Made by a program: the position numbers and the translations under genes. A stretch of DNA of 45,936 bases from an uncultured Prevotellaceae bacterium (GTDB lineage: Bacteria > Bacteroidota > Bacteroidia > Bacteroidales > Muribaculaceae). Positions 6,035 to 43,680 of the stretch are shown here, in pieces (the stretch's first letter is position 1; the number at the start of each line of letters is the position of its first letter). The stretch spans positions 1 to 45,936 of the forward strand of contig CAMJJG010000017.1 in assembly GCA_946406035.1 (NCBI GenBank). Reading direction: 5' to 3'. The notes under the pieces are model-generated. The model made no database searches. It had not been told where the DNA came from and saw only the letters and a list, made by a program, of their open reading frames with translations.

Positions 6035-6049
6035 TCCACACGCCAATAA

Positions 6050-6122: not shown

Positions 6123-6150
6123 TTTTATTAGTCACCAGGCGGAATTGTTG

Positions 6151-7068
6151 TTAGGACGTGTGGTGGAGGACGGTGCCAAAGTAGCGCGGGATGGGAGTCT
6201 CGAAGTAGAGCGGCTCGCCAGTCACCGGATGATGGAATGCCAGGCGGAAGGCGTGCAGGCACATGCGGCTGCCAGGGTCGTCCTGACGGCCATACTTGCC
6301 ATCACCCACCACAGGGTGCCCCACGTCGGCCATGTGGACACGTATCTGGTTCTTGCGACCCGTCAGCAGGTGCAGGTAGAGCAACGCGCGTTCGGGTGCC
6401 TGCTCGGCGACTTCCCACTCGGTAGCGGCCCACTTGCCACCATCGTCAACGGGACTGCTGACGACCACCATGCGGTCGGTATCGTGCAGCCAACTCTCCA
6501 CCCTGCCCTGCGGCTCTTCCATGACACCCTCGACCACGGCGACATAGCGGCGGTCGATGATCGTCTCATGCCAGTCGGCAGTCATCTGCTGCTGGATGTC
6601 CACACTCTTGGCATACACCATGAGGCCCGAGGTGCGGCAATCCAGGCGGTGCACCACATGGGCCGTGCAACGCTGGTGAGTCTCGGCAAAATGACGGTCC
6701 AGCAGGGATTTCATGTTCAGGCTGCCAGCGCCCACGGGCATCGACAATACCCCCTGTTGCTTGTCCACAACCACAATCCACCGGTCCTCATAGACGATGC
6801 TGTAGTGGGGATTGTTGGCCGATGAGGGTCGGGCATGGCGCCTGATCTGCACCACGCATCCCGGGACGAGCGGGTAATCGACATGGGACTGCACCTGGCC
6901 ATCGACGGTGACACCGCCATGGGCCAGAATGGACTTGGCCTTGTTGCGGCTGATGCCGTCAAGGGCCCGCATAACAAAGTCGAGCAGCGTGCTGGACTCT
7001 TTCACCTCGCGAGTGACGGCCTTGTCGCTACTGCGCGGCACTCGATGGTCATGACGTCGGTTGGACAT
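6151..7068 (-). CDS. RluA-family 23S rRNA/tRNA pseudouridine synthase
   Basis: 305 residues. An N-terminal S4 RNA-binding domain (about 25-75, SRNKAKSILAHGGVTVDGQV) is followed by the pseudouridine synthase domain. The catalytic motif HRLDCRTSGL has the nucleophilic aspartate D143, and LLTGRKNQIRVHMADVGHPV is the second conserved block. The enzyme isomerises specific uridines in structured RNA. The target (RluC/RluD-like) cannot be decided here. The gene starts 37 bp after dnaJ and is probably the last gene of grpE-dnaJ-rluA. Confidence 0.88.
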   Translation of the reverse strand: MSNRRHDHRVPRSSDKAVTREVKESSTLLDFVMRALDGISRNKAKSILAHGGVTVDGQVQSHVDYPLVPGCVVQIRRHARPSSANNPHYSIVYEDRWIVVVDKQQGVLSMPVGAGSLNMKSLLDRHFAETHQRCTAHVVHRLDCRTSGLMVYAKSVDIQQQMTADWHETIIDRRYVAVVEGVMEEPQGRVESWLHDTDRMVVVSSPVDDGGKWAATEWEVAEQAPERALLYLHLLTGRKNQIRVHMADVGHPVVGDGKYGRQDDPGSRMCLHAFRLAFHHPVTGEPLYFETPIPRYFGTVLHHTS

Positions 7069-11489: not shown

Positions 11490-11801
11490 TCAACGCACCA
11501 CCACCTTGCGCGACCACTGGTTACTGCACTTGACGATGTAGAACCCCTTGGGGAAATCCACCGATGCGCGCTGATCGGCTGCCACTCGCACAACCTTGAC
11601 CAGCTGACCAGTGATGGAATAAACATTGAACGTAGCGTCGGTGCTACCTGCAATAAAGACGATACGGCCCTCGGCGCCCTGTGCGGCAGGCCCCGTCACA
11701 ACGCTCTCGACGCGTTGCGGCAAGAAGCTGTCGGGCACGGGAACGGCGTTCATTCCTGCCATTGCCAGCAAGCAGATCAATATGTGTATAGACCGCTTCA
11801 T
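11490..11801 (-). CDS. Small secreted protein consisting mainly of a type IX-like C-terminal sorting domain
   Basis: 103 residues. A signal peptide (about 1-19, SIHILICLLAMAGMNA) is followed by roughly 30 linker residues and then a complete T9SS type A-like tail (about 48-103): FNVYSITGQLVKVV, FPKGFYIVK and a terminal basic KVVVR. Such tails normally sit at the end of large proteins and are recognised by the PorU sortase system for surface attachment. Here almost no cargo remains. It has its own TAATTTTG promoter. It may be a remnant left by an internal deletion of a larger gene, or a real mini-protein. It sits directly beside the peptidase array. Confidence 0.6.
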   Translation of the reverse strand: MKRSIHILICLLAMAGMNAVPVPDSFLPQRVESVVTGPAAQGAEGRIVFIAGSTDATFNVYSITGQLVKVVRVAADQRASVDFPKGFYIVKCSNQWSRKVVVR

Positions 11802-12129: not shown

Positions 12130-14550
12130 TCACATGGTGCCCTTCAACAAGTAGTCGATGAGTGTCACAACATCATCAATCGTGATTCTGCCATTACCAT
12201 CAAGGTCGGCACAATCATAATTGATGGTTCCTTCACCCTTCAACAAGTAGTCGATCAATGCTACAACGTCGTCGATGCTAACCTTGCCGTCACCATCCAC
12301 ATCGCCCATGATGGTAGCACCCTGCTTGAGGACGACCTCCCTGGTGTTACTCCAGGCGCTCTCGGTGTTGTTGACATAGAGCGACTTCACGCGATACAGG
12401 TAAGGCTCGCCCTGGAGCAGGCCGGTAACCGTGTAGAACCTGTCGGGGGTAATACCCTCGATCAAGCGGTACTCGGCATCGCCACTCTCGCTGGCACCCC
12501 TGATGGCATAGGGCCCTGGATTCTCGATCTCGCCACCATAGACCATAATCTTCTGAATCTCGGGATAATAACCGGTAGTGATCTTGACTTCGGGGTGTGC
12601 GCCCAGATCCAGCACTACCATGCAGGTATCCACTTCCCTGTAGAGCGTGATAGTCTGGGTATCGACATCGGTCGATACTTCGACAGTGCTCGACGTGCTG
12701 CGGCTGTAAGCCTTGCCCACGATGATCACGCTGACCTTGTTGTAGCCCACAGGGTCACAATGGGTATCAAACACACAATTACGGTTGGCCGACACAAAGC
12801 CGCCGTCCAGATAGAAATAATTACCCGTGAAGGTCCAGCCCTCGGGCAGGTAGTTGGCTACGTCACCAGCATGGTTGACGGGATCGCTGGGGACATCGCT
12901 CCAGTCGGCATGGGTAAGCAGAGTTATTTCGGGTTTAAGTCTCACCTCAAGCGTGTAGCTGCTCACGTTCTCGGCAGGGGTGTTGTCGTTCCAGTCGGCG
13001 CGGAACGATGTGGCCTGCACATAATCCTCATTGGCGGGCTGCATCACAGGGCGATACAGCTCATAGTCGGACTGGCCATGCAACGTGATCACAAAGTCCT
13101 CAACACCAGGAGCGCTCACGGTAATGGTTGCCGTGTATTCGCCCTCGGCCTTGGGGGCATAGGTCACATTGATCGTCTGAGCTACCCGGCCTTCGGCATC
13201 GGGAGCCACAGTGTTATTATCGATGCTGAACACGCCGTTCTCGTCGTTAAGGGTGAGCTGGGCAGCACCCTCCAGGTTGCGGCCCGTGAGGGTGAACTGG
13301 GCTGTAGCGGTCTGGTTCTTGTAGCAAGTCATCGACAACTCGCTCTTGTCGGTCTTGAGGCGAGGGGTGGTAAGAGGCGGCTGGATGCCAATCACCATCT
13401 GCTGGTAGATGTTGAATACCGAGCCACCGCCGTTAAAGGCATTCAAGGCATAGTAGTTGTTGCTTTCTCCACTCCAGCCGAAGTTGAGGTGATACTTGTT
13501 AGTCGTGGCATCATATCCGTCAATGTTAAACGCATGGCCACCACCAAAGAAGCCACCAGCAACTGCACAGAAGACGATGGGACGCTCCTCGGCAAGCTCT
13601 GTCTGGATGAGCTCGGCCCACTCGGCGTCGGTATAGAGCGTCGTTCCACCGCTATAGGCGCTGGTCTTCTTCACAACGCGAACAGTCTCCTCGTCATAGC
13701 CAAAGAACTTGAACGCATCGGCAATCAAGGAGACGCTATCAACGTTGACACCGCTTCCTCCAGCGGCGCTCGTTCCATACTCCATGTGCTCGGCCTGTCC
13801 CACATAGCGCATCAGCGTAGCTACCGCGTTGGCCTGGGCTGCACTGTAACCACTGGTGTACTTGTCAAGCATGTTATCCCAGTCAAAGGTCACTGGAGGC
13901 AGGGCGGCAACATTGACATAATTACCACTGGAATAACCCGTTGCCAGGTAGCACTTGTAAGCGGGAACCTCGGGGGTCTCAAAGTCGGGATATTTCCAGT
14001 AGTGGAACACCATCGCAGCCGACGTCGCGGGGCAACCTGTCAAGCACTGGTAACCATTGATCTTACACTGGTTCCAGTAGGGGGACTCCTGGTCCCACAG
14101 GGCGGTCAACAGTGGCTCGACACTGGCCATGCGCAGCGAGGGGGCCATCATCGATGGCGTCTCGACAACGAGCTCTTCATGGGCCTGCAAGTACTCAATC
14201 TGAGCCTTGTAAGTTGCCAGCCATGCCTTCATGTTGCACGGGATGGTGTTGATGTCGAGCTGGGTGTCGCCATAACCCAGGATTTGCTCGGCACGATCGT
14301 CACCCGACACAATCACATAGCCATTGCTCGCATTGAAGATGTAGTAAACAGCACGATCAAGCATCTTGGAGTTCATCTCGGCATGAACCAGCTGCAGTTT
14401 TCCTGACAGCGGAGCCATAAGACGACCCGAATAGCTTTTCTCAGACACAAACCGCTGTGCTGTAGCGACAGCGGTATTGACATCGACAGGAGCTGCCGAC
14501 AACTGAATAGCCGCCATCATCAAAGCGGCAAAAAATAGGATTCTTCTCAT
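12130..14550 (-). CDS. C10-family cysteine peptidase with C-terminal dockerin (paralogue A)
   Basis: 806 residues. Signal peptide (1-19); propeptide (about 22-130) with the VSGDDRAEQILGYGD motif shared by all paralogues; C10 (streptopain) catalytic domain with nucleophile C173 in LTGCPATS, H339 in GGGHAFNIDGY and the N356-F-G-W359 block; Ig-like domain (about 396-492); Fn3 domain (about 499 onward) interrupted by a jelly-roll-like insert; and a type I dockerin (748-806) whose two loops keep Asp/Asn at the calcium positions. It is a secreted protease, probably activated by propeptide removal. No type IX tail. It has its own promoter and terminator and is divergent from paralogue B. The second Trp of NWGW is kept, the first is Phe. 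Confidence 0.9.
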   Translation of the reverse strand: MRRILFFAALMMAAIQLSAAPVDVNTAVATAQRFVSEKSYSGRLMAPLSGKLQLVHAEMNSKMLDRAVYYIFNASNGYVIVSGDDRAEQILGYGDTQLDINTIPCNMKAWLATYKAQIEYLQAHEELVVETPSMMAPSLRMASVEPLLTALWDQESPYWNQCKINGYQCLTGCPATSAAMVFHYWKYPDFETPEVPAYKCYLATGYSSGNYVNVAALPPVTFDWDNMLDKYTSGYSAAQANAVATLMRYVGQAEHMEYGTSAAGGSGVNVDSVSLIADAFKFFGYDEETVRVVKKTSAYSGGTTLYTDAEWAELIQTELAEERPIVFCAVAGGFFGGGHAFNIDGYDATTNKYHLNFGWSGESNNYYALNAFNGGGSVFNIYQQMVIGIQPPLTTPRLKTDKSELSMTCYKNQTATAQFTLTGRNLEGAAQLTLNDENGVFSIDNNTVAPDAEGRVAQTINVTYAPKAEGEYTATITVSAPGVEDFVITLHGQSDYELYRPVMQPANEDYVQATSFRADWNDNTPAENVSSYTLEVRLKPEITLLTHADWSDVPSDPVNHAGDVANYLPEGWTFTGNYFYLDGGFVSANRNCVFDTHCDPVGYNKVSVIIVGKAYSRSTSSTVEVSTDVDTQTITLYREVDTCMVVLDLGAHPEVKITTGYYPEIQKIMVYGGEIENPGPYAIRGASESGDAEYRLIEGITPDRFYTVTGLLQGEPYLYRVKSLYVNNTESAWSNTREVVLKQGATIMGDVDGDGKVSIDDVVALIDYLLKGEGTINYDCADLDGNGRITIDDVVTLIDYLLKGTM

Positions 14551-14647
14551 AAATAACTGGTTATTACGTTAATGATTCTTCTGCTTCAGTTTAAAAATGT
14601 TGATTAAAAAATAGCCCTAACGGGCTCTCGCCCGCTTAATGATTTTG

Positions 14648-14679
14648 CAAAATTACACCATATTCTGCAAAAAAACAAC
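14648..14679 (-). promoter_or_regulatory. Promoter of peptidase gene A
   Basis: The minus-strand -7 box TAATTTTG (14648-14655) with GTTG (14676-14679) 20 nt upstream. It implies a leader of about 90 nt before the ATG at 14550. Confidence 0.65.
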
Positions 14680-14847
14680 ATACTGCTAAAAAAGCAGCCA
14701 AAAAACTATCACCATGCCTGCATTATATTGAATATCCGTAACAATAAACAAAAAGGCGCCAGACTGCCGTAAAACTATCATTTTCAGTCATTTTCTCTAT
14801 CAGTCGCTAATAAATTGCAAGCCTTATTGTATATTTTGGGTCATATT

Positions 14848-14880
14848 TTTGGCATTTCCCCCAAAAAGTATTTACCTTTG
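14848..14880 (+). promoter_or_regulatory. Promoter of peptidase gene B
   Basis: TTTG (14848-14851) and TACCTTTG (14873-14880), spaced 21 nt. The transcript would start near 14887, about 200 nt before the ATG at 15091. Confidence 0.75.
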
Positions 14881-14902
14881 CAGGGTGAAAAGAAATGAGA
14901 AT

Positions 14903-14988
14903 CAGTGATACTACTTTCAACTTAAAGGTCTCTTACAACCAGTGATACTACTCTTTTAAGATGACTTTCCACATGAGGTCAAAGTCAT
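14903..14988 (+). promoter_or_regulatory. Repeats and hairpin in the long leader of peptidase gene B
   Basis: The 13-mer CAGTGATACTACT occurs twice (14903-14915 and 14940-14952), exactly 37 nt apart, each followed by a CTTAAAG- or CTTTTAAG-like element. An 8-bp hairpin ATGACTTT/AAAGTCAT (14961-14968 with 14981-14988) follows. All lie downstream of the predicted start of transcription. They could bind a regulator or act in the mRNA. They match no riboswitch class I know. Confidence 0.5.
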
Positions 14989-15090
14989 GGTATATTTAGA
15001 TGGAAATAATGTGCGCTCATCATGCCTTTTCACGTGCAATTGGATATTATTTTAAGTATTATTAATGTTATATTTCTTATAAACTTTACT

Positions 15091-16845
15091 ATGAGGAAGT
15101 TTTTATTAGCAGTATCAATGCTTGCGCTCTTCACGCAAGGTGTTGACTCAAAAAGTGTTACCGTAGAGCAGGCCAAGGCTGTTGCTCAGCAGTACACATC
15201 ATCCCATCGGATGCTCATGAACGGCAGCAATGCCGATATGAAGTTAACCCATGTTGGAAGAAACTTGAAGGGTATGAACGACTACTACGTGTTCAACCGT
15301 GAAGGCAACCAGGGCTTTGTCATCGTTGCCGGTGATGATCTGTCGACCCCCATTCTGGGTTATAGCACCTCGGGGTCGTTTGACATGAACAACGCGCCCG
15401 AGACCTTGAAACTCATTCTCGAGGAATATCAGCGCGCTCTGGACTGGAAGAGACTTCACCCCCAGGCAAACCAGGCAGCCCAGGCACCCCGCCTGACCTA
15501 CGACCTGCAGCCCTATGGCGTGCTGCCCATCTGTGGTGATGTGCACTGGCACCAGTTTCCCCCCTACAACAACAACTGCCCGGCGTCGACCCATGCTTTG
15601 ACCTCCAACGGACGTTGCTATGCCGGTTGTGTTCCCGTCGCTTTCTCGACGATCATGAAGGGTCTCAGGTACCCATCGCGCGGTGCTGGTGAGAACAGCT
15701 ACAGCTTCATGCTCGACGGCAATGAGGTAACGGTTTCGGCCAATTTTGGCGACTGGCCCTACAACTACTCTCAAATGAAGAACGGTTATGGCGAAACTGC
15801 CTATAACGCCCAAGCCGTTTCCGAGTTGGTTTATGAGGTCGGTGTTGCTTTCCACACCATCTATTCCGGTGAGAGCAGTGATGCCCTTCTCAGGAATGTG
15901 TTCCGTGGAATAATCGCCTTCTTTAACTATAACGCCAACATCCAGTACGTCCAGAAGTCCAGCTACGCTTACAACGAGCAGGCTTGGTATGACATGATGT
16001 ACAACGAGATCGACAATGGTCGTCCCATCTACTACATGGGCTACAGGACCATCGACAACAATGGTAATGATTGCAATGTAGGCCACGCCTTCGTCATGGA
16101 CGGTTATGACAGCAACGGTAAGGTACACATCAACTGGGGTTTCCAGCCCGAGGAGTACAATACCTATTTTGACTGGGAACTGTTGTCACCGAGGAACAAC
16201 TACGACTACGACCCCTACAAGTCGGGCTTTAACGCCAACCAGGCAGCCATCATCGGCCTGTGCCCCGACACTACCGGCATTGGCGGCGTTGTCGTTAAGA
16301 ACGTCAATCTCGTGGCCGACACCATGCCCGCCAGCGACGTGCGCGCCAGCATCGACATTCAGTCACTGAGTGGCACTTGGAACGGCACCTTGAGGTATGG
16401 TATCGTTTCCAAGAGCGTTTCGGGCACAACCGTTACCTACAACCCTGTATATTCCAACACTACCACCGTCGACATTACCGAGGACGGCGGCATTGCCAAC
16501 ATCGACCTGTCGGGCGCTTATCCCAGCCTGCGCGAGGGCCAGACCTATTACATCGTTGTGTGGACGCCTTACTTCAACTACAGCTATGACTGGATGTGGT
16601 TCCTGGATGATCCCGTGCCCTTCACCGTCGGTGACTGGGTAACTCCTCCCGATCCCCAGTTCCTCCTGGGCGACGTGAACAATGATGGCTTTGTCAACAT
16701 CGCCGACGTGACCGCCCTGATCGACGCCCTGCTTGATGGCAGCGACTTCATCATTGCAGCCGACATGGATAGCGATGGCGCGATGAACATCAAGGACGTG
16801 ACCATGCTCATCGATTACCTGCTGACCAGCGAGCCGGCTCAGTAA
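15091..16845 (+). CDS. C10-family cysteine peptidase with C-terminal dockerin (paralogue B)
   Basis: 584 residues from the ATG at 15091. This start is chosen over the in-frame 15022 because it begins a clean signal peptide, MRKFLLAVSMLALFTQG. Propeptide about 22-135 (FVIVAGDDLSTPILGYS); C10 domain with C180 in YAGCVPVAFSTIM, H332 in GHAFVMDGY and N348-W-G-F351; then a beta-rich region (about 400-525) unlike the Ig-like/Fn3 pair of the others; and a dockerin (526-584) with two good calcium loops. It is the only plus-strand member and the most diverged. Its catalytic region is closest to the common gut Bacteroidales streptopain form. Long structured leader; bidirectional terminator shared with C. 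Confidence 0.9.
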   Translation: MRKFLLAVSMLALFTQGVDSKSVTVEQAKAVAQQYTSSHRMLMNGSNADMKLTHVGRNLKGMNDYYVFNREGNQGFVIVAGDDLSTPILGYSTSGSFDMNNAPETLKLILEEYQRALDWKRLHPQANQAAQAPRLTYDLQPYGVLPICGDVHWHQFPPYNNNCPASTHALTSNGRCYAGCVPVAFSTIMKGLRYPSRGAGENSYSFMLDGNEVTVSANFGDWPYNYSQMKNGYGETAYNAQAVSELVYEVGVAFHTIYSGESSDALLRNVFRGIIAFFNYNANIQYVQKSSYAYNEQAWYDMMYNEIDNGRPIYYMGYRTIDNNGNDCNVGHAFVMDGYDSNGKVHINWGFQPEEYNTYFDWELLSPRNNYDYDPYKSGFNANQAAIIGLCPDTTGIGGVVVKNVNLVADTMPASDVRASIDIQSLSGTWNGTLRYGIVSKSVSGTTVTYNPVYSNTTTVDITEDGGIANIDLSGAYPSLREGQTYYIVVWTPYFNYSYDWMWFLDDPVPFTVGDWVTPPDPQFLLGDVNNDGFVNIADVTALIDALLDGSDFIIAADMDSDGAMNIKDVTMLIDYLLTSEPAQ

Positions 16846-16886
16846 TCCAGCATCACAAAGACGTCTCTCAACGTCTATTAAAACGG

Positions 16887-16918
16887 CTGTGCCGAGGGTG
16901 GTAGCACCCTCGGCACAG
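16887..16918. terminator. Bidirectional terminator between peptidase genes B and C
   Basis: A perfect 14-bp GC-rich inverted repeat (16887-16900 with 16905-16918, 4-nt loop) between the convergent genes. The better T-rich tail is on the minus side. Confidence 0.85.
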
Positions 16919-16939
16919 TTGCGTTATAGAGATGTGTCA

Positions 16940-19303
16940 TCAGTTACCCGAGAGCAACTTGTCGATAAGACTCGTCACATCGGCAATGTTGACAGCACCG
17001 TCGCTATTCACGTCGGCACAGATGCTGCATCCCTCAGCGCCGCCACTCAGCAACATGTCGATCAGGGCGGTCACGTCGGCGATGTTCACCCCAGCGTCGT
17101 GGTTCACATCTCCCACCTGATAGCCATGGCCACCGTTGTCGGCGAGCGTTACAAGCTGGCTCTCGCTCCAATCACTCTCGGTGCCATCGATATAGAGCGC
17201 CTTGACCTGATAGAAGAACGAGCCGCCGGCAGCCAGATTATTGACGGTATAGGACTTGCCGGTGATGCCGGTAATCAAGCGGTAATTCTCGTCACCACTC
17301 TCGCTCGAGCGGAACGATGCGCCAGTGGCATCGCCTGCATAGATCTGGATCTTCTGGATCATGGGATAATATCCGGCCTTGAAGGTAATCTGGTCACCCT
17401 CGGCACAATCCAGCACGACCGATGTCGTGGCATAGCTGAACGGCAACTCGATAGTCTGGCTAGCCAGGCTGGTCGAGATGGTGATTTCTGACGGGTCACC
17501 CCAGTAACCGTAGCTGCGGGCTGTCACGACCACAGTCACCTTGTCATAACCCTTGAGATTCAGGGCATCGGTGGTGATGACGCTATTGCGACGGGGCACT
17601 ACACAGCCTCCCTCGAGGTTAAACTCGCTTCCCGTGAAGCCCCAGCCCTCGGGCAGATAGTCGGTGGCATGAGAAGACTGGTTGGTCGGCGACATGGCAG
17701 GCAGCGAGCTGAAGTCGGCCTCCTCAAGCAAGAGATAATCGGGCTTGGCGCTCACCTCGAGCGTATAGCTGGCGACATTGGCCGCGGGCGTCTCGTCGGT
17801 CCAGTCGGCACCAAACGAGGTCAACGTGATCCTTGACTCGTCGGCCGGCAACATCACCGGGCAATAAATCTCGAGCGGAGTCACGCCATTGAGCAGGATT
17901 GTCAAGTCATCGGCCCCCTGTGAGCGGCACACGATAGTGGCGGTATGGTTTCCCACAGCATTGGGAGTATAGGTAACGGTAATGTCTTGTCCACCCTCGG
18001 CGAGAGTTTGGCCAACAGTCGCAGCGTCGATAGCAAACACGCCATCAGGGTCATTCAACGTCAATGTCACATCGCCAGTCAGATTGGTGCCCTTGAGGCT
18101 GAAGGTAGCGGTAGCTGGTTTGCCCAAATAGGCCTGCATGTCAATCACGCTGGGATAGGCCTGCAAGCGAGGATTCTGGTAGCCCTCGGGCGGCTGGATG
18201 CCAATGACCATCTGTTGGCCGGTCCCAAAGGTCATATCATTATAGCTGAATGCGTTCAAGGCAAAATTGCCGTTTCCGCGACCATTCCAGCCCCAGTTGA
18301 CGTGGTAAGTGCCATCGGTCGCGTCATAGCCATCGACATTGAAGGCGTGGCCCGATCCCGTGTAATTGTCATAAGCGCAATAGACGATGGGACGGCCAGC
18401 CACGAGCTCGTCCTGAATCATGCTGCCCCACTGCTCATCGCTGAAATTGGCAGATCCCAGGTCATCGGTCTTGAACAGGAGCTGGGCATTCTGGTCATAC
18501 TCAAAGTACTGGACTGCCCTGAGGACATCCTTCCCATAGGCGCCACTACCGCTGATGGTGTAGTCCATCTCCTCGACCTGACCGATATAGCGCATCAGGT
18601 GGGCAACAGCGGCTGCTTGGGTTTCATTATAGCCATGGGTGTAGTCATCGAGCATATTAGCCCAGTCAAAAGTCGTGGGCGGCAGTTCAGGGAGCACCGT
18701 GCCATAGGTCGGCATCATGTAGGACGGTGCCGCGGGCGTCTGCTGCTGGGGATACTTCCAGTAGTGGAACACCATCGACAACGAGGTGGCGGGGCAGCCC
18801 GTGTAGCACGTGTCGGTGCCAAAGACGGGACACTCGTTCCAGTAGGGGGCTGCCTGGCTCCAGTTGGCCGTGAGCAGCGGAGCAACCGATGTGCCGGCGC
18901 GCAATGGTGTGCTCACCTTGATGCCTGGATTGAATTGCAGGTACTCGATCTGCCGCTTGTAATGGGACAGCCAGAATAACATGTTATCGGGCAGGGCACT
19001 CATGTCTAGGGCCTGGTCGCCATAGGCCAGAATCTCCTGGGCCCGGTCCTCTCCAGCCACCACTACAAAGGCATCGCCACAATTATAGATGTAAAAAACA
19101 GGAAGCGACTTCACCGTCGAGTTCATCTCGACATGAGTCAACTTGAGGCCACCTTGCACGGGGACCATCAAGCGGCCTGCCGTTGCCTGGCCATGTAAGA
19201 ACCGTTGAGCCTTGGCCTGGGCGGCTGCCTCATCGACGTTGGCAGCCTCGACATGTGTTAGCGCCAGCATCAATGCCGCAATACAAAACAAAAATTTTCT
19301 CAT
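16940..19303 (-). CDS. C10-family cysteine peptidase with C-terminal dockerin (paralogue C)
   Basis: 787 residues. Signal peptide (1-20); propeptide (about 22-130, FVVVAGEDRAQEILAYGD); C10 domain with C170 in YTGCPATS, H319 in GSGHAFNVDGY and the canonical NWGWNG block (about 336-341); Ig-like domain; Fn3 interrupted by a jelly-roll-like insert (WGFTGSEFNLEGG through IQKIQIYAG); dockerin at 730-787. The first dockerin loop reads DVNHDAGVNIAD, with Ala in place of the usual Gly. The second, DVNSDGAVNIAD, is canonical. A CxxC pair (CSIC) sits between them. It has a TACCTTTG promoter box upstream. All catalytic residues are present, so it is likely an active secreted protease. Confidence 0.9.
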   Translation of the reverse strand: MRKFLFCIAALMLALTHVEAANVDEAAAQAKAQRFLHGQATAGRLMVPVQGGLKLTHVEMNSTVKSLPVFYIYNCGDAFVVVAGEDRAQEILAYGDQALDMSALPDNMLFWLSHYKRQIEYLQFNPGIKVSTPLRAGTSVAPLLTANWSQAAPYWNECPVFGTDTCYTGCPATSLSMVFHYWKYPQQQTPAAPSYMMPTYGTVLPELPPTTFDWANMLDDYTHGYNETQAAAVAHLMRYIGQVEEMDYTISGSGAYGKDVLRAVQYFEYDQNAQLLFKTDDLGSANFSDEQWGSMIQDELVAGRPIVYCAYDNYTGSGHAFNVDGYDATDGTYHVNWGWNGRGNGNFALNAFSYNDMTFGTGQQMVIGIQPPEGYQNPRLQAYPSVIDMQAYLGKPATATFSLKGTNLTGDVTLTLNDPDGVFAIDAATVGQTLAEGGQDITVTYTPNAVGNHTATIVCRSQGADDLTILLNGVTPLEIYCPVMLPADESRITLTSFGADWTDETPAANVASYTLEVSAKPDYLLLEEADFSSLPAMSPTNQSSHATDYLPEGWGFTGSEFNLEGGCVVPRRNSVITTDALNLKGYDKVTVVVTARSYGYWGDPSEITISTSLASQTIELPFSYATTSVVLDCAEGDQITFKAGYYPMIQKIQIYAGDATGASFRSSESGDENYRLITGITGKSYTVNNLAAGGSFFYQVKALYIDGTESDWSESQLVTLADNGGHGYQVGDVNHDAGVNIADVTALIDMLLSGGAEGCSICADVNSDGAVNIADVTSLIDKLLSGN

Positions 19304-19360
19304 CTAGTCTGTTTCTTTTAAAAGTGTTATTGGGTTACAATTAATCATATTAAGCGGGTG

Positions 19361-19368
19361 CAAAGGTA
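19361..19368 (-). promoter_or_regulatory. -7 promoter box of peptidase gene C
   Basis: TACCTTTG on the minus strand, about 58 nt upstream of the ATG. No good -33 box at the expected distance. Confidence 0.55.
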
Positions 19369-19410
19369 ATACATTCCCTCGCGTTTTACAGCCTGTAGCG
19401 CCGCCAAAAT

Positions 19411-19449
19411 GCCAAAATAGTGGCAAGGCGCGTTGCACCTTGCCACTAT
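19411..19449 (-). terminator. Terminator of peptidase gene D
   Basis: A perfect 12-bp inverted repeat (19417-19428 with 19438-19449) followed on the minus strand by TTTT. Confidence 0.85.
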
Positions 19450-19475
19450 GGTCGTGCATGATTGGAGTACCTGTA

Positions 19476-21608
19476 TCAGTTTCCTCCCAGCAGTAGATCG
19501 ATGAGGGCTGTCACATCAGCAATATTGACCGTACCGTCAACCTTGACGTCGGCACAGGTCTGGCAAACGCCCTCGCCGCCGCTCAACAGGTTATCAATCA
19601 AGTCGGTCACGTCCTTGATGTTGACACTACCGTCATGGTTCACGTCACCCAGGTCAAAACCGTGGGGTGCGGGGCCGTTATCAAACAATGTCACTTCCTC
19701 GATGTTGCTCCAGGCGCTCTCGGTGCCGTTCACATAGTGGGCCTTTACCTTGAAGTTAAAGGTTCCGCCTGCCGTCAGGCCTTGAACGGTGTAGAACTTG
19801 TCGGTAATATCGGTAATGACACGCGAGGTGCTATCGCCCGTCTCTACAGGGATTGAGAACACCCTGGGCCCGGCATCAATAGTCGAGCTGTAGATATCCA
19901 CTTGGGTAATGATCACCCGCTTGCCGCTCTCGGTAGTCGAGAAGGTAACCTTCTGATTCTCATCGGCTACACACTCCAGGACAACAGTCTGCATGCCATC
20001 GGCACCAACGGTGACATCCACCATGCTGGCGCCACATGAGATCCTCACGGGCACATTGGTATCGCTGCTGTAAGGCTTCATGGTTGCCACCACAGTCATC
20101 TTGCCGCCGCTCTGGGTCATGTTCAGGGCAGGAGTGGTGATTGATCCGTTACGGGAAGAGGAGCCCAAGCGCAAGCCATGATTGGCTTCATACACATAGG
20201 AGCCCGTCCAGCCCTTGTTGGCACAATAGTTATCCAACATGGAGATAGCAGTGCTGCCGCTGCTGGTGCAATTGGGGAACGACTCACTGAACACCTTCTC
20301 ATACACCCCGGGGTCGCTAGCTGCACCAGCGTTGACCTCGAGGGTATAATGGCTCACATTCTGGGCTGGGGTCTCGTCGGTCCAGTCGGCACGGAACGAG
20401 GTGAGCGTGATGTAGTCGCTGTCGGCAGGCTGCATCACGGGGTCATAGGCCTCGACAGGAGCGGGAGGCTCAATGCCCATAATCATCAGCTGGTTCAGAT
20501 TATAGGTGTAACCCTGGTTGGCAAACGCATTTAGGGCAAAATATCCGTTTCCAGTACCACTCCAGCCCCAGTTGATCGAGAACAATCCCGTCGTCGCGTC
20601 ATAGCCATCGACATTGAAGGCATGACCATAATAGTCATCATAGGCCGAACTGTAGCTCACGGCGCAATACACCACTGGGCGCCCAGCATAGAGTTCACCC
20701 TTGATCATCTCGGTCCACTCAGCGTCATCAATATAGACACTATCGACATCGTTGGCATACAGGATTGACTTATAGGCAATATGGGCATTCACATAGCCAA
20801 AAGTCTTACAGGCCCTGAGTATGTCTTCCTCATTGGCCTCACCCCACTCGTTGGTGTAATCCATCTGCTCGGCCTGACCGATGTAACGCATCAATTGGGC
20901 AACGGCATTCTTATTGGTGTCGTTATAGTAGCCAAAGTTATAGGTGGGCAACATATTATCCCAGTCAAATCTTACCGAGGGTAATGCCTCGAGAGTAATG
21001 CCCCACGTGTCGGTGGTGTATCCGGGAATGACGGGAGTCGGTTGGGCAGGATACTTCCACTTATAGAACACCTGGGCCAGCGAGGTGGCGGCACAGCCGG
21101 TCTGGGCACGCACGTCGCCGGTCATCGGGCACTGCGCATAATAGGGAGAGCCCTGGTTCCACATGGCCTCGAGCATGGGCGCGACGCTCTGGTCGCGGCT
21201 TCCCTTCAATACGGTTTTCTCGACAACCATGCCAGGGCGGGATTGCAGCAGTTCAATCTGTGTCTTGTAATAGTCCAGCCAGAACCGCATGTTCTGGGGC
21301 AGGGACTGCATGTTCTCAAGGGGGCGGTCGCCATAGGCCAAAATATCGCGGGCACGGTCATCGCCGGCAACAACAACAAAGCCGTTGTCGGTATTGATGA
21401 CATAATAGGCCGCCTGGCTGGCACTAGAGGAGTTCTTCTCCTGATGTACCCACTTGACACTGGGCGACGAAGCATTCAAGCGACCAGTAGCCGCACGATT
21501 CAGCAAGAAGCCACACGCCTTGTCACGAGCTGCAGCCACATCGACCGGAGCAGCCCAGGCATGAAGGGCCACCGTCAACAGGGTGGCAAGAGTAAGCATT
21601 TTCTTCAT
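19476..21608 (-). CDS. C10-family cysteine peptidase with C-terminal dockerin, lacking the Ig-like domain (paralogue D)
   Basis: 710 residues. Signal peptide (1-19); propeptide (FVVVAGDDRARDILAYGD); C10 domain with C172 in QTGCAATSLAQV, H329 in YYGHAFNVDGY and the canonical NWGWSG. The catalytic domain passes straight into the Fn3 start (PVMQPADSDYITLTSF) after only IEPPAPVEAYD, so the Ig-like domain found in A, C, E and F is missing. The insert in Fn3 is the most typical Bacteroidota jelly-roll (RLGSSSRNGSITTPALNM). Its dockerin (653-710) is 52/58 identical to that of E. The second loop has Lys at the third calcium position. No clear promoter: the short upstream gap is filled by E's terminator. 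Confidence 0.9.
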   Translation of the reverse strand: MKKMLTLATLLTVALHAWAAPVDVAAARDKACGFLLNRAATGRLNASSPSVKWVHQEKNSSSASQAAYYVINTDNGFVVVAGDDRARDILAYGDRPLENMQSLPQNMRFWLDYYKTQIELLQSRPGMVVEKTVLKGSRDQSVAPMLEAMWNQGSPYYAQCPMTGDVRAQTGCAATSLAQVFYKWKYPAQPTPVIPGYTTDTWGITLEALPSVRFDWDNMLPTYNFGYYNDTNKNAVAQLMRYIGQAEQMDYTNEWGEANEEDILRACKTFGYVNAHIAYKSILYANDVDSVYIDDAEWTEMIKGELYAGRPVVYCAVSYSSAYDDYYGHAFNVDGYDATTGLFSINWGWSGTGNGYFALNAFANQGYTYNLNQLMIMGIEPPAPVEAYDPVMQPADSDYITLTSFRADWTDETPAQNVSHYTLEVNAGAASDPGVYEKVFSESFPNCTSSGSTAISMLDNYCANKGWTGSYVYEANHGLRLGSSSRNGSITTPALNMTQSGGKMTVVATMKPYSSDTNVPVRISCGASMVDVTVGADGMQTVVLECVADENQKVTFSTTESGKRVIITQVDIYSSTIDAGPRVFSIPVETGDSTSRVITDITDKFYTVQGLTAGGTFNFKVKAHYVNGTESAWSNIEEVTLFDNGPAPHGFDLGDVNHDGSVNIKDVTDLIDNLLSGGEGVCQTCADVKVDGTVNIADVTALIDLLLGGN
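19479..19652 (-). repeat. Dockerin-coding repeat, copy in D (near-identical copy in E at 21747-21920)
   Basis: The dockerin-coding DNA of D and E differs at only a few positions over long stretches (for example 19615-19670 against 21883-21938), well above the similarity of the rest of the two genes. It is a 2.3-kb-spaced direct repeat that could recombine. Confidence 0.75.
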
Positions 21609-21677
21609 GTTGTCAGGTTTTAAAAAGTGTTATTAGTTTACAGTTATGTCTTCAACCACTAGGTAATCTGTTTTTTT

Positions 21678-21720
21678 AAAAAAGCGTGACAAGAAAATGG
21701 TGCTCTTGCCACGCTTTTTT
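21678..21720 (-). terminator. Terminator of peptidase gene E
   Basis: Inverted repeat AAAAAAGCGTG..CAAG against CTTG..CACGCTTTTTT (21678-21694 with 21705-21720), symmetrical with A/T runs at both ends, immediately downstream of the E stop codon on the minus strand. Confidence 0.85.
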
Positions 21721-21743
21721 TTAGGGGGGAGTTTGTTTATAGA

Positions 21744-24149
21744 TCAATTGCCGCCCAGCAGCACATCGATCAATGCCGTCACGTCGGCAATATTGACCGC
21801 GCCGTCAACCCTGACATCGGCACAGGTCTGGCATATGCCATCGCCGCCGCTCAGCAGGTAATCGATCAAGTCGGTCACGTCTTTGATGTTGACGCTACCG
21901 TCATGGTTCACATCACCCAGGTCAAAACCGTGGCCATTGGCAAACAGGGTTACCTGCTGCGTGTTGCTCCAGGCGCTCTCGGTACCGTCGGCATACAGGG
22001 CCTTTACCTTGTACAGGTAGGTACCCTCGGCAGTAAGGTCGTTAACAGTATAGAACTTGTCGGTGATGCCGGTAATCAGGCGATAGGCGGCGTCGCCGGT
22101 CTCCTGGGCGCGCAGCTGCGGAGCCGTTAACTCGCCAGCATAGACCTTGACGCTCTGGAGCACAGGATAGTAGGACTCGGAATAGATCTCAATCCTCTCG
22201 CTGTCACCGCAATTCAGGACAAAGGTATAGTCGGCAAAGTCGGTGGCAAACTCCTGATACTTGCTGTCAACGCTGGTCTTGACGGTAACGGCCGATGCGG
22301 TCCAGCTATACTGGTTTCTGGCCCTTATCACAACGGTCACCTTGTCAAAGCCCGTGAGATCAAGCGTGTTAGTAAAGAGGCTATAGGTGCTCGAGATCTC
22401 GATGCATCCTCCCGCGAGGTAAACACCACCGTCATAGGTCCAGCCCTCAGGCATATAGTTGGCGGCATCGCCCGACGAGGGCACCTCGCTCCAGTCGGCC
22501 TCGGCAATGAGTCCACTGGTGGGTTTCTCTTTTACCTCGAGGGTGTAGCTGGTCACATTCTCGAGCACGGTCTGATCGGTCCAGTCGGCGCGGAACGAGG
22601 TCAAGTTGATTGCGCTGCTATCAGCGGGCTGCATCACGGGATCATAGACCACCAGGGGTGCGGCGGTTGCAGTACCCTTGAGGGTTACAACCTTGTCGGC
22701 AGCACCTGCACTGGTAAGGGTGATGGTGGCGGTGTGAGTGCCCACGGCCTGGGGAGCATAGGTCACCACAATCGAGGCGTTGCCCACCTGGTCAAGCGCA
22801 ATCGAGGTAACATCGATGGCAAACGCTCCGTTCTCGTCGTTGAGTGCCACGGCAATGCCCTCGGTCAGGTACTGACCCTTAACGGTGAGGGTATCGGTAA
22901 CGGTCTCACCGGTGTAGCATGACATCGACAGCTCCTGAACATCGGTCAGGATGCGGGGATCGGTCGACAGGCCGGGAGGCTGTACCCCGGCAAAGAAGAT
23001 GGGCCAGAAGTCATAAATGGTGATGAAATCGATCTGGAAGGCGTTGAGGGCATAGTAGGCGTTCAAATCAGAGCGCATACCGAAGTTCACATGATACAGG
23101 TCATTCTCGGCATCATAACCGTCGACATTGAAGGCATGGCCACCCAGGCCGGTCGAGTCGCTCGACATGTCATAGGCGCAATACACCAGCGGACGGCCGG
23201 CAAGCAGCTCGGCCTGGATGAGTTCACCCCACTGCTCGTCGGTGTAGAACTCGTGACCGTCGTGATTCTCGTAGTCGCCGTCGTAGTCGGGCGAGTCATA
23301 CTTCTTGGCGATGTACACGCCCTCGTCGTAGCCGAAGGTGCGGATGGCGTTCAGAATCTGGTAGTTCTGAGTGCCGCTCTTGTCGGTGTTGTAGTCAATC
23401 GTCTCGGCTTGACCCACATAGCGCATGAGCCATGCCACGGCATCCTTGTTCACATCAGGCAACTGGTCGGTGTTGTTGCTGTAGGCCTCATAGGTGTCCC
23501 ACATGTTGTCCCAGTCAAAGGTGTACTCGGGCAGCGCCGGCACGTTGATCTTGGAGTCGGGGCACTGGTAAGCGGGCAGCGCGGGAGCTACCTCGGGGTA
23601 CTCCCAGAACTTCATCACCTGGGCCAGCGAGGTGGCGGTGCAGCCCACCATGCAGTAATCACGACCCACCCGCGGGCACTGCATGTTGTAGGGCTTGCCC
23701 TGAGCCCAAGCGGTCTTGAGCAGCGGCTCTACCGAGACACCTCCGCGGTTAACATGCTTGTTGACCACCAGTCCGGGATGTGCCTGCAGGTACTCCATCT
23801 CGGCCTTGTACAGCCTCAGGAAGAACTGCACGCCATCGGGCAGGTCATTGAGATCGGCTAGAGGCTGGTCGCCATACACGAGCACGTCACGGGCACGGTC
23901 GTCACCGGCGACGATGGCATAGCCACGGTCGGTGTTGACGATGTAATAAGCCGTCTGGGCTACATTGCTTGAGTTTTTCACCTCATGAGTCCACTTGACG
24001 GTGGGCTTCGAGGCCATCAGTCGGCCTTGAGGAGTCTTTTTAAGCAAGAAATCTGCAGCCTTGGTCTGGGCTGCCGCCAAATCGACATTTCCAGCCACCG
24101 CCTGCGTTGCCGCAAGCAAGAGTGCGGCAAGAAACAGCATTTTTTTCAT
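21744..24149 (-). CDS. C10-family cysteine peptidase-like protein with dockerin and altered active-site motif (paralogue E)
   Basis: 801 residues. Signal peptide (1-19); propeptide (AIVAGDDRARDVLVYGD); C10 domain keeping nucleophile C170 (MVGCTATSLAQV) and H338 (GGHAFNVDGY), but the canonical NWGWNG block is N355-F-G-M358-R-S, so both tryptophans are lost. A longer, acidic surface insertion precedes the His (KKYDSPDYDGDYENHDGHE, about 282-300). Then Ig-like domain, Fn3 with jelly-roll insert and dockerin (744-801) with a CQTC pair; its second loop has Arg at the third calcium position. It may be an active enzyme with changed specificity or a pseudo-peptidase. A degenerate -7 box (TAATTTAG, 24217-24224) lies upstream. 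Confidence 0.88.
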   Translation of the reverse strand: MKKMLFLAALLLAATQAVAGNVDLAAAQTKAADFLLKKTPQGRLMASKPTVKWTHEVKNSSNVAQTAYYIVNTDRGYAIVAGDDRARDVLVYGDQPLADLNDLPDGVQFFLRLYKAEMEYLQAHPGLVVNKHVNRGGVSVEPLLKTAWAQGKPYNMQCPRVGRDYCMVGCTATSLAQVMKFWEYPEVAPALPAYQCPDSKINVPALPEYTFDWDNMWDTYEAYSNNTDQLPDVNKDAVAWLMRYVGQAETIDYNTDKSGTQNYQILNAIRTFGYDEGVYIAKKYDSPDYDGDYENHDGHEFYTDEQWGELIQAELLAGRPLVYCAYDMSSDSTGLGGHAFNVDGYDAENDLYHVNFGMRSDLNAYYALNAFQIDFITIYDFWPIFFAGVQPPGLSTDPRILTDVQELSMSCYTGETVTDTLTVKGQYLTEGIAVALNDENGAFAIDVTSIALDQVGNASIVVTYAPQAVGTHTATITLTSAGAADKVVTLKGTATAAPLVVYDPVMQPADSSAINLTSFRADWTDQTVLENVTSYTLEVKEKPTSGLIAEADWSEVPSSGDAANYMPEGWTYDGGVYLAGGCIEISSTYSLFTNTLDLTGFDKVTVVIRARNQYSWTASAVTVKTSVDSKYQEFATDFADYTFVLNCGDSERIEIYSESYYPVLQSVKVYAGELTAPQLRAQETGDAAYRLITGITDKFYTVNDLTAEGTYLYKVKALYADGTESAWSNTQQVTLFANGHGFDLGDVNHDGSVNIKDVTDLIDYLLSGGDGICQTCADVRVDGAVNIADVTALIDVLLGGN

Positions 24150-24302
24150 AAATAGCTTGTTAATGGTTAATAATGATTATTTAAAGTGTTGTAGTATCCT
24201 TTTGCTTTTCAGGGCGCTAAATTACTATTAAAATATGGTATTATGAACTTTTTTATTAACAAAATGCAGAAAAAAACAACAAATCACACAATAGCTGGCA
24301 TC

Positions 24303-24341
24303 AAAAAAAGGCCCAGGCCCTAAATCACAGAGCCCGAGCCT
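24303..24341 (-). terminator. Terminator of peptidase gene F
   Basis: A 12-bp GC-rich stem including three G-T pairs (24309-24320 with 24330-24341), followed on the minus strand by a run of T. Confidence 0.8.
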
Positions 24342-24360
24342 CTACTCAATCGGCTATTCA

Positions 24361-26766
24361 TCAATTGCCGCCCGTGAGCAACAGGTCAATAAGCCATGTC
24401 ACATCAGCAATATTAACCAGGCCATCGGGCTTGACGTCGGCGCAGATGGGACAAATCTCAACATCGCTAAGCAGGGAGTCTATCAACAAGGTAATATCCT
24501 TAATGTTGACAACGCCATCGTGGTTGACATCGCCCAGATCATAACCATGACCGTTCTCATAGAGCGTAATCGACTGTGTGTTGCTCCAGGCGCTCTCGGT
24601 GCCATCGATATATACAGCCTTCACCTTGTAATAGAATGTGCCAGCGGCTTCCAGGTCCTTAACCAGATAGGACTTGCCGGTGATGCCGGTAATGAGGCGC
24701 TGGGTTGCGTCACCCTCCTCAACAATATCCCTAATCGTAACCGCATCGAGTTCACCGGCATAAATCATGATCTTCTGGATCATGGGATAGTAGCCGGCAG
24801 TAAAGACGATACTCTCGTTCTCGCCACAGTCGAGCACCGCAGTGTAATCGGTAAACGAGGCGGTTCCGGTAAATGTCTCGCTGGCCTTGCTGGTAGCGAT
24901 AGTCAAGTCGGCTGTCATGCTCGAGCTCCAACTCTTGAAGGTTACCACGACAGTTACCTTGTCATAGCCGCTCAAGTCAAACGCAGGTGTGGTGAGCGTA
25001 CTGCCACTGGAGGGTTCAATGCTGGCACCATCCAACCACAGGCCTGACCCATTAAAGGTCCACCCCTCGGGAATCAACTCACTCGCCCGACCAGCCTGAT
25101 TGCCGTTCTGGGTGGGATAGTCGCTGAAGTCTGACGCCGAAATGAGCCGAGTGGCGGGCTTGGTGTTGACCATCAACGTATAGCTCGACACATACTTGCT
25201 ATCGGTCTGGTCGGTCCAATCGGCCTGGAACTGCGTCAGGTTCACCGATGCGCTGTCGGCGGGCAACATCTCGGGCTCGGTGGCATCGATGCTGGCCACG
25301 CCGTTGATGGTGATGACCTTGTCCTGGGCATCGGGATTGCTCAGCTTAATGGTCGCAGTGTGGTGGCCACTGGCCTGGGGTGCATAGGTCACGGTAATGA
25401 CCTTGCCGCCGTCGAGATCATCGACAGCCACATTGCCGGCATCTATCGAGAAGTAGCCACTGTCATCGTCGAGGGTGAGCGTCACGCCGCTGCTAAGTTC
25501 CTGTCCCTTAACAGTAAAGGTGGCCGTCGCCGTCTGGTCAACGTGGGCTTCCATATCCAGCCTGGAGGTTGACACCCTGATTGTGGGACCGTCAACGGGT
25601 GGTTGGATACCGATTATCATCTGTTGCTCGATATTAAACGTGTAGCCACTAGACGAGAACGCATTGAGGGCAAAATCGCCGTTACCGTCACCGCTCCAGC
25701 CCCAGTTCACGTGATAGGTATTGTTTGCAGCATCATAGCCGTCAACGTTAAAGGCGTGACCACTCCAGCCGTACCAGTCGGAGTAGTCATAACCGCAATA
25801 TACCACGGGACGCCCTTCGGCAAGTTCGTTCTGGAGCAAGGCAGCCCACTCGTCATCGCTGTAATACACTGCCGTGTCGTTTCCGTCATCATCGGTTCTG
25901 GTCTTATATAGTAACTGAGCGCTCTCCTGGTCATACCCGAAGAATGTCACGGCGCGCAGGATGTCTTCGCCCATCGCACCACTACCGCTAGGAGCATAAT
26001 CCATGTGCTCTTCCTGCCCCACATAGCGCATCAACCATGCCACGGCATCGGCCTGGGCGGTATTGTAGTTGCCACTCGTGTAGGTGTCGAGCATATTGTC
26101 CCAGTCAAAGGTGATTGAGGGCAATGCGGGCACATCAAAGCCGTAGCTCTCATTAACATATCCCTCGACAGCGGGTGTCGGGGCGGTGGGGTACTTCCAG
26201 TAGTAGAACACCATCGAGAGCGACGTAGCCGGACAGCCAGTCAAGCAACGCGAGCCATTGTAGGTGGGGCATTGATTATAGTATGGAGCACCCTGGTCCC
26301 ACAGGGCCGTCAGCAGCGGGGCCACGGTCGCCGCACGCGACGACCGGCTCATGCGGGCGGTTTTATTCTCGACCTGCAATCCTGGATGGTCCTGGAGATA
26401 CTCGATCTGCTTCTTGTAGGTGCCCAGCCAGAACCTCATGTTGTCGGGCATACGCTTCAAGTCCAGGGGCTTGTCGCCATAGGCTAGAATCTCTTGAGCG
26501 CGATCGTCACCGGCAACAATCACAAAGCTCCGGTCAGTATTAAAGATGTAATAAACCACTTGGTCGGCACGCCTGGAATTGGCCTCGGCACTGACTAGCT
26601 TCAAGCCAGTAGTGGAATTGCCGTTAAAACGCTGGTAGCCATTGTTGCCCAACAGGAAACGCTGGGCCGAAGCCTGGGCTTGAGCAAAATCGACATCGGC
26701 TGCCGAGACCTGTACCTGTAGTGCTGCAAGCAGCAGGGCTGTAAAAAGAAATAATAATTTTTTCAT
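24361..26766 (-). CDS. C10-family cysteine peptidase with C-terminal dockerin (paralogue F)
   Basis: 801 residues from the ATG at 26766. The in-frame TTG at 26793 is rejected because the signal peptide starts at MKKLLFLFTALLLAAL. Propeptide about 24-135 (FVIVAGDDRAQEILAYGD); C10 domain with C178 in LTGCPATSLSMV, H337 in WSGHAFNVDGY and canonical NWGWSG; Ig-like domain (ISTSRLDMEAHVDQT-like start); Fn3 interrupted by a jelly-roll-like insert; dockerin (744-801) with a CPIC pair between repeats and Lys at the third calcium position of loop two. Closest in layout to C. Likely an active secreted protease with its own promoter and terminator. Confidence 0.9.
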   Translation of the reverse strand: MKKLLFLFTALLLAALQVQVSAADVDFAQAQASAQRFLLGNNGYQRFNGNSTTGLKLVSAEANSRRADQVVYYIFNTDRSFVIVAGDDRAQEILAYGDKPLDLKRMPDNMRFWLGTYKKQIEYLQDHPGLQVENKTARMSRSSRAATVAPLLTALWDQGAPYYNQCPTYNGSRCLTGCPATSLSMVFYYWKYPTAPTPAVEGYVNESYGFDVPALPSITFDWDNMLDTYTSGNYNTAQADAVAWLMRYVGQEEHMDYAPSGSGAMGEDILRAVTFFGYDQESAQLLYKTRTDDDGNDTAVYYSDDEWAALLQNELAEGRPVVYCGYDYSDWYGWSGHAFNVDGYDAANNTYHVNWGWSGDGNGDFALNAFSSSGYTFNIEQQMIIGIQPPVDGPTIRVSTSRLDMEAHVDQTATATFTVKGQELSSGVTLTLDDDSGYFSIDAGNVAVDDLDGGKVITVTYAPQASGHHTATIKLSNPDAQDKVITINGVASIDATEPEMLPADSASVNLTQFQADWTDQTDSKYVSSYTLMVNTKPATRLISASDFSDYPTQNGNQAGRASELIPEGWTFNGSGLWLDGASIEPSSGSTLTTPAFDLSGYDKVTVVVTFKSWSSSMTADLTIATSKASETFTGTASFTDYTAVLDCGENESIVFTAGYYPMIQKIMIYAGELDAVTIRDIVEEGDATQRLITGITGKSYLVKDLEAAGTFYYKVKAVYIDGTESAWSNTQSITLYENGHGYDLGDVNHDGVVNIKDITLLIDSLLSDVEICPICADVKPDGLVNIADVTWLIDLLLTGGN

Positions 26767-26821
26767 CACTAATTGATCTAAAAGTTTTTCCAATGATTAT
26801 AAATAGCCGGAATGGAATATG

Positions 26822-43647: not shown

Positions 43648-43680
43648 CCGACCAATAACCATCCATATTTTTTTCAAGCA

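Follow-up and report, generated by a model that had tools for sequence, protein, structure and literature searches.

Cellulosomes such as those of Clostridium thermocellum and Ruminococcus flavefaciens bring together enzymes whose C-terminus is a type I dockerin, anchoring proteins, and multi-cohesin proteins that are likewise terminated by a dockerin. Comparable elements were found in an array of six dockerin-bearing C10 cysteine peptidase genes in a 45,936-nucleotide stretch of an uncultured Prevotellaceae bacterium (contig CAMJJG010000017.1 of assembly GCA_946406035.1), and in the remainder of that genome and its relatives. The system differs from those cellulosomes in its Gram-negative host, in a type IX-like tail, seen in relatives, in place of SLH or sortase anchoring, in the N-terminal position of some dockerins, in C10 peptidases as the commonest recognised enzymes, and in having few cohesins, which are invisible to Pfam. 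The whole stretch, hereafter the window, corresponds to a single contig in a 69-contig assembly of 2.23 Mb that is 74.7% complete.

Other described systems share single features with it. The Ruminococcus bromii amylosome, as presented in parts of two reports (PMC9112005, PMC5814915), is likewise a cohesin-dockerin system not aimed at cellulose, but it assembles starch enzymes in a Gram-positive host, whereas alpha-amylases account here for 5 of 88 dockerin open reading frames (ORFs) and C10 peptidases for 14. The Limousia mucinolysome, according to part of its report (PMC12997984), is a cellulosome-like complex predicted from genomes for a substrate other than cellulose; its organism and cargo differ. 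A papain-like peptidase module also occurs in a cellulosome-related protein of R. flavefaciens, where, in the part of the source available (PMC3573020), it sits in one multi-modular protein rather than in a C10 array. Interpain A and other C10 peptidases have the same propeptide, C10 fold and catalytic Cys and His, although the solved fragment of interpain A lacks a dockerin, and the proteins described here add an immunoglobulin (Ig)/fn3-like spacer and a dockerin.

We hold with fair confidence that the array represents a tandem expansion of zymogen proteases that dock, together with other dockerin proteins, onto cohesin scaffolds of the same bacterium. The best reading of the sequences is a cohesin-dockerin assembly in a Gram-negative bacterium.

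Architecture of the protease array

The six genes (P1 to P6) and their dockerins were located as follows.

12130..14550, minus strand: C10 peptidase P1, 806 amino acids (aa), with a signal-peptide-like start, an I69 propeptide, the C10 domain and a C-terminal dockerin with 'IDDVVALIDYLL' repeats
12145..12306, minus strand: dockerin of P1 (PF00404)
15022..16845, plus strand: C10 peptidase P2, 607 aa, divergent and on the opposite strand, with a C-terminal dockerin
16666..16824, plus strand: dockerin of P2 (PF00404)
16940..19303, minus strand: C10 peptidase P3, 787 aa, with a C-terminal dockerin
16952..17113, minus strand: dockerin of P3 (PF00404)
19476..21608, minus strand: C10 peptidase P4, 710 aa, with a C-terminal dockerin
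19488..19652, minus strand: dockerin of P4 (PF00404)
21744..24149, minus strand: C10 peptidase P5, 801 aa, with a C-terminal dockerin
21759..21920, minus strand: dockerin of P5 (PF00404)
24361..26793, minus strand: C10 peptidase P6, 810 aa counted from TTG, with a C-terminal dockerin; modelled with AlphaFold2
24376..24537, minus strand: dockerin of P6 (PF00404), modelled separately

All six reading frames were intact from start through stop, five on the minus strand and one (P2) on the plus strand. The true start of P2 is probably an internal ATG at codon 24, and an ATG at codon 10 is the probable start of P6. Pfam matched PF01640 Peptidase_C10 in all six ORFs (E 3e-49 to 3.4e-42), an N-terminal PF13734 Inhibitor_I69 domain, which is Spi-like, in all six (E 7.8e-24 to 3.9e-15), and PF00404 Dockerin_1 in all six at 29.1–38.9 bits (cut-off 22.9 bits), with the dockerin ending 3–6 residues from the stop. 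The order was the same throughout: I69 propeptide, C10 peptidase, spacer and C-terminal two-repeat type I dockerin. The first-pass annotation, made from the sequence alone, had described six streptopain-type proteases each ending in a two-repeat dockerin, and Pfam agreed in all six cases, with coordinates in accord with those of the annotation. It had also remarked that the window holds no separate Spi-type inhibitor gene; because a Spi-like I69 domain is fused to each protease as an N-terminal propeptide, this absence is no puzzle. The spacers gave weak Ig-like or fn3-like Pfam matches, with both kinds of region in P1.

In local alignments, P1 and P3–P6 were mutually 43–55% identical, and P2 was 24.6–27.4% identical to the rest. 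Cys187 and His346 of P6 were invariant in alignment A4, which comprises 46 proteins of the window and of relatives, P1, P3 and P5 included; the catalytic Cys and His of P2 and P4 were located by motif, with a script that missed the Cys of P5. The AlphaFold2 model of P6 built from A4 (mean predicted local distance difference test, pLDDT, 84; predicted TM-score, pTM, 0.47) retrieved (pro)interpain A and SpeB/streptopain structures at ranks 1–14 in the PDB, the best being 3bb7 (interpain A of Prevotella intermedia). The six genes are members of the C10 family, and the P6 model has the streptopain/interpain zymogen fold.

The terminal modules contain the two calcium-loop repeats, D-x-[ND]-x-D-G-(x5)-D, that define type I dockerins, and docking through them would be expected to depend on calcium. 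A profile of the tails of the window and of relatives matched solved cellulosomal dockerins (best E 1.8e-12), and the array matches are therefore not due to chance; among the 28 sequences matched at E ≤ 0.001, two were other calcium-binding proteins. In a separate model of the last 79 residues of P6, chains titled as dockerins occupied ranks 1–34 of 36 PDB matches. The TM-score by query length was 0.57–0.68 for the first 27 matches, and for these 79 residues the best E was 0.018 and none fell below 0.001. A CxxC motif lies between the repeats in the dockerins of P3–P6 (CSIC, CQTC, CQTC and CPIC, respectively); it also occurs in other C10 dockerins of this genome, is common among the C10 dockerins listed for relatives, and could form a disulfide.

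We compared the array with 74 C10 loci of named relatives (closest 78% identical; labelled Prevotellaceae, Prevotella, Muribaculaceae, Porphyromonadaceae, Bacteroidaceae or Bacteroidales), several of whose record titles name ruminant stomach compartments. These loci held 158 C10 ORFs, 145 with a complete C-terminus and 13 cut. A dockerin ended 129 of the 145; the other 16 comprised 15 with a type IX-like tail, judged by inspection, and one that was apparently truncated. At least four same-strand C10 ORFs were present in 20 loci, one of which (L143) adds another on the other strand, indicating that protease arrays are widespread in the group. Within a plasmid collection, all C10 relatives were below 60% identity and none covered 80% of the query.

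Dockerins and cohesins in the genome and its relatives

The genome contained 91 Dockerin_1 places. A profile built from its own dockerins, applied to ORFs of at least 60 aa in the stretches around these places, gave 88 distinct dockerin ORFs (a 42-aa fragment on contig C26 was excluded), of which 68 carry the module C-terminally, 16 near the N-terminus and 2 internally, with 2 cut at the end of a stretch. Pfam confirmed the dockerin at E ≤ 1e-5 in 81 of the 88 (44/46 plus 37/42). The genome's 14 C10 peptidase places were all accounted for by the 14 C10 ORFs in this set (11 + 3), making C10 the commonest recognised enzyme family among the dockerin proteins, though not their sole cargo. The remainder included LRR_5 (10), CotH (9), FGE-sulfatase-like (7), alpha-amylase (5), M6 peptidase (at least 3) and Endonuclease I (3) proteins, and single subtilase, GH53, GHL10 and peptidyl-arginine-deiminase-like proteins. 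Cellulase families were absent at E ≤ 1e-5 from the complete match lists of 69 ORFs; for the other 19, none was among the 25 of 28 families listed, and the remaining three were represented by one match each, weaker than 1.4e-8. The repertoire is accordingly not that of a cellulosome in the strict sense, with cellulases among its dockerin enzymes; the GH53 protein gave a weak PF00150 match.

N-terminal dockerins (e.g. C5:24754, C28:4348 and C49:10321) were found on CotH, FGE-sulfatase-like, GH53, SusD-like and carbohydrate-binding proteins. Two of these are SusD-family proteins (C7:58501-61278, plus strand, locus L244; C19:35156-37270, minus strand, locus L246), in which a simple motif test, used in place of SignalP, found a signal peptide and no lipobox. 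A SusC neighbour was sought on the upstream side of both genes, where the ORFs encode a branching-enzyme-like and an ABC protein.

We assigned dockerins to classes by position 14, which lies two residues beyond the final Asp of the calcium loop. Among 93 segments, 62 were T-class, 23 N-class and 8 other; in the window, five of the six were T-class and P1 was V-class. Two clean repeats were present in 74 of the 88 ORFs, and in 91% of these both repeats had the same residue at position 14, as against 46% in shuffles. Such agreement would be expected if a pseudo-symmetric face bound more than one class of partner. Positions 10, 11, 18 and 22 play a role in clostridial dockerins; here, agreement was 0.57 versus 0.32 in shuffles at position 11 and 0.41 versus 0.22 at position 22, and barely above shuffles at positions 10, 17, 18 and 21.

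The first-pass annotation had placed the cohesin partner outside the window, proposed a genome-wide profile search for cohesins and dockerin proteins, and held that a genome without any cohesin-like domain would speak against a docked complex. The search supported this placement. The window itself held no cohesin module, whether PF00963 or more sensitive profiles were used, as the annotation had said, and four divergent modules were recovered on two ORFs of other contigs with the aid of relatives. For this we built a profile (A1) from 40 cohesin modules, drawn from PF00963-matched ORFs of relatives and including three modules of this genome. In the PDB, its top five matches were cohesin or scaffoldin chains (5n5p at E 3.7e-6, 4uyp, 2xdh, 6kgc and 6kg8), with sialidases and other unrelated chains among the weaker of 20 matches at E ≤ 0.1, and 27 of the 40 members individually matched PF00963 at E ≤ 0.01. 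A1 located three modules in a 927-aa ORF (contig C41) and one in a 194-aa ORF (contig C10); a fifth match, weak and partial at E 0.001, was not counted. As three modules of this genome were within A1, the profile was rebuilt without them and searched against 1828 ORFs from the stretches retrieved, giving 88, 85 and 13 bits on the C41 protein and 48 bits on the C10-contig protein, with no match among 3656 reversed or shuffled ORFs. The C41 protein has a signal-peptide-like start followed by a cohesin (the weak one, 13 bits), four Big_2 domains, a cohesin, a dockerin, a cohesin and a dockerin; two of its cohesins span residues 513-634 and 735-849. Judged through this intermediate profile, the modules are homologous to accepted cohesins.

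Dockerins and cohesin-profile matches recur together in the genus. Among 198 genomes sampled from the family, each of the 16 belonging to the genus of the window organism had at least about 30 dockerin places, and genomes of other genera had mostly 0–4, the exceptions being G295 (at least 30) and G333 (9). PF00963 matched 7 of these 16 genomes at E ≤ 0.001, 6 of them above the cut-off. In a genus sample of 61 genomes, five of which had supplied A1 rows (G000, G309, G426, G437 and G484), A1 matched 61 of 61 at E ≤ 0.001, including every one of the 31 with completeness of at least 90% and contamination of no more than 5%; the matches in G499 and G520 were weak (6e-6 and 1.9e-4). In G464, a single contig 98% complete, PF00963 gave no match and A1 gave five. 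Outside the genus, a dockerin was present in 36 of 45 A1-positive genomes versus 31 of 137 A1-negative genomes (odds ratio 13.7, Fisher p 8e-12). Across the order as a whole, a dockerin match was present in 104 of 295 genomes, and genomes with at least about 30 places also occur outside the family (e.g. G003, G048, G094, G196 and G215).

The relatives also encode proteins with the architecture of scaffolds. Six relatives have proteins of 913–917 aa with six cohesins and a terminal dockerin; among the PF00963-matched ORFs, 914-aa proteins with six modules were found in two relatives and four modules with a dockerin in a third. In the gene of the third (L195, contig C7 of G484), the signal peptide lies in a frame other than that of the cohesins, through an assembly error or a frameshift. 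We inspected 18 cohesin loci of relatives, hand-picked from the profile matches rather than drawn at random. In 15 of them, a tailed cohesin protein directly precedes, on the same strand, a protein composed of a signal-peptide-like start, 1, 2 or 6 cohesins and a dockerin. The tailed protein combines an internal dockerin with one or two cohesins and its type IX-like tail. Two-cohesin proteins in four relatives (L231–L234, from G510, G491, G426 and G498) end in an apparent half dockerin. No cohesin reached the threshold used in the regions flanking the 74 C10 loci of named relatives, and for the two cohesin ORFs of this genome neither a scaffold pair nor a tail was seen.

Proposed docking, possible export and competing explanations

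We propose the following mechanism. The secreted cysteine proteases would be made as zymogens and kept inactive by the I69 propeptide until they are held by the cohesin proteins. They would reach the periplasm by their signal peptides, and an unspecified step would then take them across the outer membrane or display them on it. Their dockerins would plug into the divergent cohesins encoded elsewhere in the genome, which would hold the proteases beside dockerin proteins of CotH-like, LRR, sulfatase-modifying-like, amylase, nuclease and SusD-like types. In relatives, the scaffold may be two-tiered: the whole or half dockerin at the C-terminus of the secreted protein with 1–6 cohesins could link it to the tailed cohesin protein. 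The module anatomy, the dockerin set, the cohesin modules and profile matches, and the relatives' scaffold gene pairs are read directly from sequence; binding between the cohesins and dockerins is inferred, and type IX secretion would account for surface display.

Evidence on type IX export came from TIGR04183 tails, nine of which were found in the genome, as compared with 88 dockerin ORFs; the type IX translocon protein SprA is also encoded. Two tails lie in the window.

11496-11666, minus strand: type IX tail (TIGR04183), outside the C10 ORFs
45244-45357, plus strand: type IX tail (TIGR04183), outside the C10 ORFs

Type IX-like tails elsewhere in the window and none on the proteases had already been noted in the first pass, and the scan gave the same picture: none of the six proteases had a TIGR04183 match at E ≤ 0.1, and none of the nine genomic places was in a C10 ORF. 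The first tail belongs to a small ORF (107-aa frame) consisting mostly of a signal-peptide-like start and the tail; it may be a remnant or encode a short secreted peptide. The second ends an Endonuclease I protein with an fn3 domain and no dockerin (43645-45387, plus strand); three other Endonuclease I proteins carry a dockerin. On contig C32, an Endonuclease I protein (3953-6274, plus strand, L098) carries both, with the dockerin ahead of a type IX/DUF6383-like tail. The tails of 19 relatives' cohesin proteins, aligned with six of the nine TIGR04183 tails of this genome, gave an hhalign probability of 98% (E 2.6e-13) in a single comparison, and TIGR04183 scans of individual cohesin-protein tails were weak or empty. 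The non-dockerin C10 tails of relatives were not accepted as proven type IX tails (TIGR04183 in none of two scanned; only 50% in an hhalign comparison between known tails and 14 of the 16); they resemble the scaffold tails (94.7%) and were kept as type IX-like by inspection.

Several observations weigh against docking onto own scaffolds. PF00963 had no match in the genome, its two cohesin ORFs included; we rejected PF00963 as the sole verdict on cohesins, which at face value would refute the finding, given its insensitivity in view of the matches in relatives. The best cohesin module of the genome, searched alone in the PDB, retrieved only PCNA chains and no cohesin. Four cohesin modules stand against 88 dockerin ORFs, in an assembly that is incomplete. 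Neither own cohesin ORF had a TIGR04183 match, and since the proteases carry a signal-peptide-like N-terminus only, their crossing of the outer membrane is left unexplained. A recent duplication of repeats would equally produce the agreement at position 14. Four of the 15 scaffold pairs have just one repeat, scoring 16–17 bits, as their terminal dockerin. The co-occurrence statistic ignores shared descent; nine A1-positive genomes had no dockerin match, and G295 (genus g185 of the same family, 85% complete), for all its dockerin places, had no A1 match and may have a more divergent cohesin partner or none.

Docking might additionally serve as a route of export or retention, with tailed cohesin proteins carrying or holding untailed dockerin proteins at the outer surface. 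One tailed scaffold would then serve dozens of untailed enzymes, most of which have a signal-peptide-like N-terminus only, and the dockerin of the two SusD proteins stands close behind the signal peptide, as though docking had taken the place of the lipid anchor usual for that family. We regard this extension as rather doubtful.

The dockerin could instead be an export or sorting tail used in place of a type IX tail, with no scaffold docking. The seeming interchange of dockerins and type IX-like tails on relatives' C10 proteins (129 versus 15 of 145) and among the Endonuclease I proteins of this genome, three with a dockerin and one with the tail instead, would suit this idea, as would the excess of dockerin ORFs over TIGR04183 tails. 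Yet 16 of the 88 dockerins lie near the N-terminus and two are internal, where an end tail could not work, the C32 protein carries both modules in succession, and cohesins do exist in the genome. The genus, moreover, retains 7–17 TIGR04183 tails per genome (median 10 in 16 genomes), showing that the type IX route has not been replaced; these counts are inside the family range (0 to at least 27), and we accordingly discarded a wholesale substitution of type IX tails by dockerins. We consider the export-tail explanation improbable.

Alternatively, dockerins may be calcium-binding structural caps and the cohesin-like modules Ig-like domains with another role. Their EF-hand-like character, the remoteness of this genome's cohesin modules from the Pfam cohesin model, the low cohesin to dockerin ratio and the genomes with one module type only are compatible with such caps. 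Caps, however, need no matched recognition classes, and position 14 mostly agrees between repeats; dockerins and cohesins co-occur outside the genus; and six-cohesin proteins with a dockerin, encoded beside tailed cohesin proteins, amount to a scaffold architecture. There seems little chance that caps explain these features. That the dockerins bind cohesins of other bacteria sharing the habitat, such as ruminococci, rather than their own is very improbable: few own cohesins and cellulosome-building rumen neighbours would fit, but the cohesin profile matched every genome of the genus sample.

Earlier surveys and implications

Pieces of this system are already in print as domain counts. Part of PMC9763041 lists dockerins only in 9 of 25 bins bearing dockerin or cohesin, and part of PMC9177762 confines cohesins to Firmicutes_A bins. 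In the portions available, PMC6071333 describes camel rumen Bacteroidetes bins that carry dockerins and some cohesins, PMC5830445 a single Prevotellaceae bin, RUG606, with a two-cohesin protein, and PMC7480376 a dockerin role in polysaccharide utilization loci (PULs) of (rumen) Bacteroidetes that is still undefined. The Muribaculaceae genus C941 appears in part of PMC9863278 with many dockerins and GH13 and no cohesin; if the present genus is C941, the reported lack of cohesins may reflect the search model. Within the open-licence literature searched, we found no paper in which C10 proteases, or cohesin proteins bearing type IX tails, are described as components of a cohesin-dockerin system.

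Candidate partner modules, mostly missed by Pfam, occur in all genomes sampled from the genus, and docking can now be tested directly by means of recombinant modules. Should binding be demonstrated, cellulosome-like assembly would extend to a Gram-negative bacterium with proteases as a major cargo, and would provide a new set of cohesin-dockerin pairs. Protein digestion is the presumed purpose of the array, and such an assembly would bear on protein breakdown in the ruminant stomach.

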